Virus record (IMG/VR): IMGVR_UViG_3300037247_000275
Location: 1-44,995 of that record
From: a virus
DNA length: 44,995 nt
Reading direction: 5' to 3' (one strand)
The position numbers were made by a program, and so were the translations under genes. Shown here piece after piece: positions 19,897-23,796 of the stretch. The notes beneath the pieces are model-generated. The model was given only the letters and a program-made list of their open reading frames with translations, did no database searches and was not told where the DNA came from. Within the stretch, counting starts at the first letter, position 1. The number at the start of each line of letters is the position of its first letter.

Positions 19897-20087
19897 TACT
19901 GCCTGCCCGCCTCGCCATCATCATATCCTTCGTAGTAGCACCAGTCAGTCAGCTTGACCACTAACTGCTTTAGCCGTGTGTCAATAGGAGACACGTTGAC
20001 CAAGAAGTCGAGGGTCTCCTTGTCCTTAGCACTAGCATCGGAGTCACTGAGGAACTGTGCTAGCAGGTCTTCCTGTTCGTCTGCCAT
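19896..20087 (-). CDS. Hypothetical acidic protein
   Basis: 63 residues, acidic (DEQEDLLAQFLSDSDASAKD), with a helical middle and a C-terminal YYEGYDDGEAGRQ. The start overlaps the TGA of the upstream 50-residue gene. No family recognised. Confidence 0.62.
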   Translation of the reverse strand: MADEQEDLLAQFLSDSDASAKDKETLDFLVNVSPIDTRLKQLVVKLTDWCYYEGYDDGEAGRQ

Positions 20088-20239
20088 CAGTCTCTCACTG
20101 AATGGCCGTTGCCAGCCAGCCCCTGCTCGATCTGCCTACGCATCTCTGCTGGCAGCACCGACCATTGCTTAGACTGACGCAGAGCCTTGACTGCATTGAC
20201 TAGGTTGATGGACACTAACACCATCTTAGGCTTGCTCAT
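20087..20239 (-). CDS. 50-residue hypothetical protein
   Basis: ATG 20239 has AGGAG about 7 bp upstream and a TGATG overlap at its end. It begins MSKPKMVLVSINLVNAVKAL and continues with a helix containing VLPAEMRRQIEQGL. The region is otherwise free of genes on this strand, and the signals match those of neighbours. Confidence 0.65.
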   Translation of the reverse strand: MSKPKMVLVSINLVNAVKALRQSKQWSVLPAEMRRQIEQGLAGNGHSVRD

Positions 20240-20295: not shown

Positions 20296-20324
20296 TGATA
20301 CTCACCTCCTCTCTCATGGTTCTG

Positions 20325-20600
20325 CTACACGTTAAGCAGGTCCTTCACTAGTGGCTCCACGCTTATAACCTTGTCGGATGGCACGTAGTACCAGGTCCGA
20401 GGTCGGCCATCAGGAGTTACGAACGCTTGAAACTCCTGCTCGCTGAAACAGATACCCGCTGCGGAAAATGGCCCGTTGTCTATGAGGCACACCAAAGCTG
20501 AACCGTCAGGGGCAGGCCAGCTAGGAGTCCCTACTTCGTCTCCATGCTCCTGCAACCAGTCTTCCTTGGTCTGGTCAGGTGGGTTGATGTAGTATCCCAT
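20325..20600 (-). CDS. Conserved phage protein (MGYYINP family)
   Basis: ATG 20600 is fixed by GAGAGGAGG 8 bp upstream; length 91. The opening MGYYINPPDQTKEDWLQEHG is a typical start for a group of small early phage proteins. The rest is a compact mixed fold (ALVCLIDNGPFSAAGICFSEQEFQAF). Its mRNA begins with a candidate structured element at 20622-20748. Function unknown. Confidence 0.78.
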   Translation of the reverse strand: MGYYINPPDQTKEDWLQEHGDEVGTPSWPAPDGSALVCLIDNGPFSAAGICFSEQEFQAFVTPDGRPRTWYYVPSDKVISVEPLVKDLLNV

Positions 20601-20621
20601 TAGTCTCACCTCCTCTCTACT

Positions 20622-20748
20622 GATCGACTCAGCGCCGCCACCGAGGAGACCACTACCAGTTCGTGTCCTGAAAGAGCACTCATCCTCAAGTGGTGAGAGG
20701 ACAGTGTTATCAGGCGCATATATCCTCAGCAGCGGCGCTCAATCGACC
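20622..20748 (-). ncRNA. Candidate structured RNA leader with 17-bp outer stem
   Basis: Arms at 20622-20638 and 20732-20748 pair over 17 positions with one mismatch and two G-U pairs. On the - strand the 5' arm is GGTCGATTGAGCGCCGC and the 3' arm is GCGGCGCTGAGTCGATC. Inside the 93-nt loop are further pairs such as TGTCCT with AGGACA and CTCA with TGAG. The element lies between the stop of the 35-residue gene and the ribosome site of the gene at 20600. It could be a riboswitch-like or protein-binding leader. It has no U-run, so it is not a simple terminator. Confidence 0.55.
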
Positions 20749-20846
20749 AGACAACTCAAGCACCGACCTCTAAACGGATTCAGTAAGGTAGGCTTGTTAC
20801 AGGAGGTACAGTGTCCGTGGCTGTGTTCACTTTTATGTTGTCTCAT
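20739..20846 (-). CDS. 35-residue zinc-ribbon microprotein
   Basis: ATG 20846 lies 2 bases after the stop of the upstream microprotein. The peptide has a His-rich start (MRQHKSEHSHGH), CTSCNKPTLL and GRCLSC, two CxxC pairs separated by 14 residues, a minimal zinc ribbon. The Cys pattern is the main evidence. No ribosome site of its own; coupling is likely. Its stop codon lies in the outer stem of the structured leader. Confidence 0.6.
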   Translation of the reverse strand: MRQHKSEHSHGHCTSCNKPTLLNPFRGRCLSCLVD

Positions 20847-20914: not shown

Positions 20915-21000
20915 GGTGCATCCTTTCTCGTAGCTCTAACCACAATGCTACTAACCCAACCAAGGCCAGCCACTATCTCTAATGGCTGACGTTGGTGAGG

Positions 21001-21171
21001 CTAGTCGTCCGCTAGTCCGGCTCGTCCTCCGTCCAACTCCTTCACTTGAATCTCGCCATCCTCATCCGACGTGATCTTGATGATGATATACATACCATCA
21101 CCGAGGTAGTCCTGCAGGTCTGGAATGTTGATGTCATTCAACACCGCCTGTATGGTGTCCTTGATCGGCAT
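21001..21171 (-). CDS. 56-residue early protein, first gene of leftward operon
   Basis: ATG 21171 has AGAGGAG 6 bp upstream. The peptide contains IKDTIQAVLNDINIPDLQDY, then GMYIIIKITSDEDGEIQVKEL and ends ADD. It looks like a small alpha-beta acidic protein. It is the first gene of normal size after the leftward promoter and so is made earliest. Interval 20915-21000 has no gene that I can support. Confidence 0.7.
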   Translation of the reverse strand: MPIKDTIQAVLNDINIPDLQDYLGDGMYIIIKITSDEDGEIQVKELDGGRAGLADD

Positions 21172-21256: not shown

Positions 21257-21285
21257 ATTGTACCATAGGCGCTTGGCGTTGTCAA
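21257..21285 (-). promoter_or_regulatory. Main leftward early promoter (sigma70-type)
   Basis: On the - strand TTGACA (21285-21280), 17 bp, then TACAAT (21262-21257). The predicted start of transcription is near 21249, followed by a short leader and the operon at 21226. No other promoter of this strength is visible downstream on this strand before 3707. Confidence 0.85.
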
Positions 21286-23552: not shown

Positions 23553-23588
23553 GCTCTCCTCCTACTGCGACCATTAACTTCTATTCAC

Positions 23589-23617
23589 ATTATATAATAG
23601 TGGGTGGTCGTTGTCAA
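23589..23617 (-). promoter_or_regulatory. Second leftward promoter (consensus)
   Basis: TTGACA (23617-23612), 17 bp, TATAAT (23594-23589): both boxes match the sigma70 consensus exactly. The start of transcription is expected near 23582, 30 bp before the ATG of the gene at 23552. Confidence 0.9.
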
Positions 23618-23712
23618 GCTGTCCGCCAGTATATGCACTTTATCAATTCAGAGCGACCCCGTATAGTTATATACAGTGAATGGGAGTAAATGGTCGTCTA
23701 GCCTCTGAAATC

Positions 23713-23767: not shown

Positions 23768-23796
23768 TTGACACATGCCTCAAAGTGTGCTATAAT
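23768..23796 (+). promoter_or_regulatory. Rightward promoter of the packaging and virion operon
   Basis: TTGACA (23768-23773), 17 bp, TATAAT (23791-23796), an exact consensus. Transcription should start near 23803. It faces away from the leftward promoter at 23589-23617; 150 bp separate the two -35 boxes. Confidence 0.9.

Follow-up and report, generated by a model that had tools for sequence, protein, structure and literature searches.

The hairpin at 20750-20620 on the minus strand of IMG/VR virus record IMGVR_UViG_3300037247_000275 (44,995 nt, referred to here as the window) is a structured RNA. It belongs to a set of hairpins that seem to form a new family of signals for cutting mRNA or insulating genes. 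At least eight contigs of related uncultured phages carry homologues, with up to four per contig and 19 elements in all. The element and its surroundings in the early operon contain the following parts:

21257-21285, minus strand: sigma-70-type promoter TTGACA-17-TACAAT upstream of the element's operon, the presumed start of the transcript
20950-21005, minus strand: second, compact member-like hairpin of the same operon, CTAGCCTCACCAACG...GGTTGGGTTAGT, with an 8-1-5-1-11 stem, a small loop and relatives in contigs L013 and L032
20739-20846, minus strand: 35-aa ORF, MRQHKSEHSHGHCTSCNKPTLLNPFRGRCLSCLVD, with a zinc-ribbon-like CxxC...CxxC arrangement; ends in the 5' arm of the hairpin
20725-20750, minus strand: 5' arm of the base stem, CTGGTCGATTGAGCGCCGCTGCTGAG, holding the stop codon of the 35-aa ORF; kept in relatives
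20646-20724, minus strand: variable interior of 79 nt, weakly structured (z -1.7) and unlike every relative in sequence and length
20620-20645, minus strand: 3' arm of the base stem, CTCGGTGGCGGCGCTGAGTCGATCAG; kept in relatives
20606-20618, minus strand: extended Shine-Dalgarno sequence AGAGAGGAGGTGA, 1 nt past the stem and largely unpaired in the fold (mean 0.76)
20325-20600, minus strand: MGYYINP-family gene, 91 aa, with no assigned function, between the hairpin and the MSKPKM gene
20302-20314, minus strand: exact repeat of AGAGAGGAGGTGA, beyond the MGYYINP gene
20087-20239, minus strand: MSKPKM/MAKPKM gene, 50 aa, whose counterpart lies directly behind the same hairpin in contigs L010 and L032

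The hairpin takes up the space that separates the 35-aa ORF from the MGYYINP gene. Its stem begins in the last codons of the ORF, whose stop codon (TGA, 20741-20739) lies within the 5' arm as an earlier, preliminary description of this DNA had noted. The 131-nt element folds at about -69 kcal/mol (z about -6), and none of 200 shuffles is equally stable. For the 127 nt to which the preliminary description had confined it (20622-20748, minus strand), the values are -65.2 kcal/mol against -41.1 +/- 3.9 in dinucleotide shuffles (z -6.24, 0/200), the comparison with shuffled sequence that this description had named as a check; the plus strand of the same stretch folds more weakly (-48.2 kcal/mol, z -4.1). 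The two 17-nt arms described earlier are indeed found on the minus strand, with one G.G mismatch and two G-U pairs, but the length of the stem had been understated: it comprises 26 consecutive positions, 25 of them paired and one a G.G mismatch (20750-20725 with 20645-20620, minus strand). The interior pairing TGTCCT/AGGACA turned out to be an alternative, as the minimum-energy fold prolongs the stem by CTGAGGA/TCCTCGG and adds the pairs CCTGA/TCAGG and CACTGTCCTC/GAGGATGAGTG. The stem stands well above chance, as only one other of comparable quality occurs in the 45-kb window, a promoter dyad near 23.6 kb.

The window and five homologous loci match no Rfam family at or above its curated score. 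ARAGORN finds no tRNA or tmRNA gene, and Rfam no tRNA. The search for an intrinsic terminator, i.e. a GC-rich hairpin with a U-run, gave none; the stem is followed by TAGAGAGGAGG, in agreement with the earlier statement that a U-run is absent. A promoter within the element was rejected, with hexamer matches of at most 8/12, no better than chance. A 23-aa ORF that starts at an ATG in the window's interior and runs through the 3' arm into the Shine-Dalgarno sequence is not general, because the interior in L010 has no ATG. The 35-aa ORF matches no family; judging by its two CxxC pairs, it is possibly a zinc-ribbon microprotein. The nearest recognisable promoter (21285-21257, minus strand) is located about 500 nt upstream of the element with no terminator in between, and the element is therefore probably carried within an early transcript.

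Relatives of the window were found via the terminase (TerL), and more via stem patterns. Contigs L010, L013, L031, L032 and L035 contain the full element with nearly the same arms (CTGGTCGGTTGAGCGCCGCTGCTGAG / CTCGGTGGCGGCGCTGAGCCGAACAG) and a different interior, and the gene after the hairpin differs in most of them. Diverged classes built on the same plan (CTAGACCTTCCCGCGCTGC..., CTAGACCTGCCTACTCC... and CTAGTCTCACCAG...) occur in L031, L032, L040, L041 and L063. All copies lie in the same orientation, at ribosome sites of the early strand. A covariance model gives the homologues that it detects scores of 29-93 bits, with 1-4 copies per contig, and unrelated contigs at most 17 bits. Matches to the 5'-arm pattern in L017-L019, L021-L030, L033 and L034 were dismissed as chance; they come without a 3' arm and reach at most 17 bits in the model. 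A scan with the MAKPKM protein yielded no further contigs. GenBank phage records contain no similar DNA and no MGYYINP protein, and their TerL relatives are all under 60% identity. In prokaryote genomes there is no TerL relative, and a pattern search of 84,980 species genomes found no element. Literature searches found no published description of this hairpin family.

The stems covary strongly. Compensatory changes affect 12 of 26 pairs in a set of 10 elements and 15 of 22 pairs in a set of 16, the covariation in homologous leaders that the preliminary description had named as a check; these counts are not all independent events, since the phages are related and most of the elements stem from a single metagenome (3300005253). 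The 16-element set has 50 compensatory cells against 16 in shuffles, a value that 0 of 500 shuffles reach, and the signal is lost when the pairings are slid. RNAalifold, supplied with no structure, recovers the stem with 21 pairs, 11 of them compensated. Non-Watson-Crick cells read on the mRNA strand are G-U rather than A-C by 51 to 15 (p 1e-5 in a binomial test, indicative only since the test takes cells as independent and the rows are related). A dyad acting as DNA would not be biased in this way, and the same measure applied to the ESAS dyads of mycobacteriophage Anaya, whose arms were located by a Watson-Crick-only search, gives 9 to 10. Because the stems covary and the wobbles lie on the mRNA strand, the element is an RNA structure, not a dyad in DNA, and the suggestion of a new structured RNA is upheld.

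In the family, the base stem spans about 22-26 positions, interrupted by one or two single mismatches that are conserved, and C1, U2, G4 and C6 as well as G, A and G on the 3' side are constant across classes. The interior, in contrast, is exchangeable. It ranges from 3 to more than 100 nt across copies, is unrelated in most of them and is mostly no more stable than its own shuffles. Since interiors vary in length and mostly have shuffle-level stability, the base stem is the conserved object and selection acts mainly there. One interior (GAGGCCyCTCATAGGACCA...TGGTCCTCACAGGGTAAGTCCTC) is common to L010 and L063, in which the outer arms are different:

L010 5439-5496, minus strand: shared insert in one outer stem
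L063 9251-9294, plus strand: shared insert in a different outer stem

Frame and insert can therefore recombine or diverge separately. A UAAG shortly 5' of the 3' arm recurs in L010, L063, L032, L013 and L035. The interiors in L032 (5113-5225, minus strand) and L013 (1363-1521, minus strand) carry a canonical T-arm, GAGGGTTCGACTCCCTC, and a near-canonical one, GGGGTTAGAGTCCCC, respectively, and neither ARAGORN nor Rfam reports a tRNA in them.

The reading that we favour, with a probability of about 0.5, is that the hairpins are intercistronic double-stranded RNA processing and insulation sites that would work like the RNase III sites of phage T7. RNase III is specific for double strands and needs a duplex of two turns, whatever the insert. 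The family offers a covarying stem of about two turns (22-26 positions with 1-2 mismatches) between early cistrons that are presumably co-transcribed. A host or phage RNase of this type would recognise the stem whatever the insert and cut it, and the cut would leave the downstream gene with a short leader in which the ribosome site is open, parted from the upstream message. An uncut stem would still block ribosome read-through and keep the Shine-Dalgarno sequence free. This sequence is unpaired at 0.53-0.98 across elements, and the complementarity between it and the interior is at chance level in 15 of 16 elements; an open Shine-Dalgarno sequence and an interior not complementary to it beyond chance argue against both sequestration and a riboswitch. 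What speaks against RNase III alone is the partly invariant sequence of the stem, which goes beyond the needs of this enzyme and points to a specific binder or to recent common descent.

A constant double-stranded stem over an arbitrary insert is also the plan of the RNase III base stems of pre-rRNA, in which the insert is an rRNA of more than 1 kb; here it is 3 to more than 100 nt of RNA between phage genes. The early polycistronic RNA of T7 is cut at five RNase III sites, with R1.1 RNA cut at one phosphodiester (PMC4858673), and T7 has 10 RNase III sites (PMC9135205). R1.1 and the others resemble the present hairpins in layout: they are double-stranded hairpins between cistrons, and one early polycistronic RNA holds several of them. 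Unlike the T7 sites, the present stems have in common a base of related sequence in which mismatches are conserved. They enclose inserts of up to more than 100 nt and border directly on a 13-nt extended Shine-Dalgarno sequence, and their cleavage is a prediction.

Because some stem bases are invariant, the main rival to a processing site is a protein-bound operator of translation or stability, in which a phage or host RNA-binding protein on the base stem would switch a set of early genes together. Such a protein could read the conserved mismatches and the CURG.C / G..AG positions, i.e. the partly invariant primary sequence in both arms, and several copies in one early transcript would suit coordinate control. 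There is a precedent in T4 gp43, which binds a hairpin 5' of its own ribosome site (PMC3014915). In the present family, however, the Shine-Dalgarno sequence lies open outside the stem, so that repression would have to involve an additional step. A candidate binding protein was not found, and the sequence varies greatly between classes while the pairing is kept. The operator is thus possible but doubtful.

It is unlikely, though worth stating, that the constant stem is a scaffold for exchangeable small RNAs. This idea comes from the T-arm-like hairpins in L032 and L013 and from the one insert in different frames in L010 and L063. A cut in the base stem would then release the insert in the form of a stable small RNA of the phage, and the same cut would give the downstream gene a standard leader.

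Processive antitermination of the put type, with the nascent hairpin binding RNA polymerase and carrying it past terminators in a long early operon, would fit a strongly structured RNA that lies within 0.7 kb of the start of an early transcript. It is nevertheless quite improbable, as an operon holds several copies, which all stand at ribosome sites and not at its head, no terminators are seen nearby, and Rfam gives no match.

A DNA-level dyad, serving as an operator or promoter, is largely refuted and has very little left in its favour beyond the likeness to the ESAS of cluster K mycobacteriophages. These are 17-bp imperfect inverted repeats with spacers mostly of 4-13 bp and with arms for which pairing in mRNA lacks support (PMC3203893); the ESAS of Adephagia are reported to contain SigA-like promoters (PMC11373665). 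In TM4, Anaya and Adephagia, the ESAS/SAS pair has the same layout as the present element, a variable-spacer inverted repeat directly 5' of an unusually conserved ribosome-site sequence, and likewise occurs several times per genome, ahead of some of the non-structural genes (PMC3203893). The present arms, however, are 22-26 nt long around a spacer of 3 to more than 100 nt, their pairing as RNA is supported by the wobble bias described above, and they contain no promoter hexamers. The 13-bp SAS at the start codon matches in position, but the present motif, AGAGAGGAGGTGA, is close to a plain extended Shine-Dalgarno sequence and not to GGGATAGGAGCCC. The ESAS is the closest look-alike but does not match in RNA pairing, promoter content or spacer length. 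Microbacterium phages of cluster EF have SAS/ESAS-like motifs, in which a conserved motif at the ribosome site is linked to a second one 5' of it that is weakly conserved and centred on GTAGAG (PMC7302621); the present element differs from this second motif in being a long hairpin that covaries.

A miniature mobile element with terminal inverted repeats is scarcely credible: its ends would be conserved, its interior variable and its copies several per genome, as here, but every copy sits in one orientation at an early-strand ribosome site, compensatory changes, with G-U falling on one strand, account for the divergence of the arms, and the 84,980 prokaryote species genomes hold no copy by pattern. 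A ligand-sensing riboswitch or attenuator, the riboswitch-like leader of the preliminary description, is just as hard to credit: leader position and strong structure agree with it, but there are no conserved interior, no anti-Shine-Dalgarno complementarity beyond chance in 15 of 16 elements, no terminator and no Rfam match.

Long hairpins are over-represented at the early ribosome sites of this lineage. In 19 related contigs, a long stem is found just 5' of 29 of 275 early-strand Shine-Dalgarno/start sites, against 0.8 expected from shuffles, a count that includes some promoter dyads (e.g. at window position 23563) which are not RNA hairpins; on the late strand the figure is 2 of 190 sites, against 0.4 expected. 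The early matches include stems unrelated in sequence to the family (L040 3635-3510 and L039 1456-1265, both on the minus strand), which suggests that the use of such hairpins extends beyond the sequence family. Phage early operons consist of many tiny genes with few promoters, and how each gene attains a level of expression of its own is little understood outside a few model phages. Covarying multi-copy hairpins at about one in ten early ribosome sites of an uncultured lineage would amount to a general RNA-level system of punctuation. The covariance signature of the family is a ready search query. An ESAS-like architecture, an inverted repeat plus a conserved ribosome site, can evidently be built at the RNA level, and this helps to sort out the role of such motifs.

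The genes behind the hairpin change from phage to phage. In L010 and L032 the 50-aa MAKPKM gene follows it immediately; the MGYYINP gene in the window and an MKVLVCGDRNW gene in L013 stand between the hairpin and the MAKPKM homologue. The MGYYINP gene is flanked by exact 13-nt direct repeats of AGAGAGGAGGTGA (20618-20606 and 20314-20302, minus strand), and a similar repeat flanks the L013 gene. The simplest reading is that genes were inserted behind the hairpin via recombination at the ribosome-site repeat, and such repeats may be recombination points for gene capture. The distant MGYYINP homologues in IMG/VR (L001-L003) have no hairpin upstream, and homologous elements precede other genes. 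The element is thus not a leader specific to the MGYYINP family, as had been supposed; the MGYYINP gene is cargo.

Elsewhere in the window, an inverted repeat at 23569-23696 with arms of about 24 nt encloses a perfect sigma-70 promoter, TTGACA-17-TATAAT (23617-23589, minus strand). It lies upstream of the MILGIIHVN gene and has counterparts in L011 (~2540), L036 (~2803) and L047 (~7951). This repeat looks like a DNA operator/promoter dyad, nearer to the ESAS than the element at 20750-20620 is. A second perfect sigma-70-type promoter, TTGACA-17-TATAAT at 23768-23796 (plus strand), faces the late strand and is divergent from the promoter at 23617-23589.
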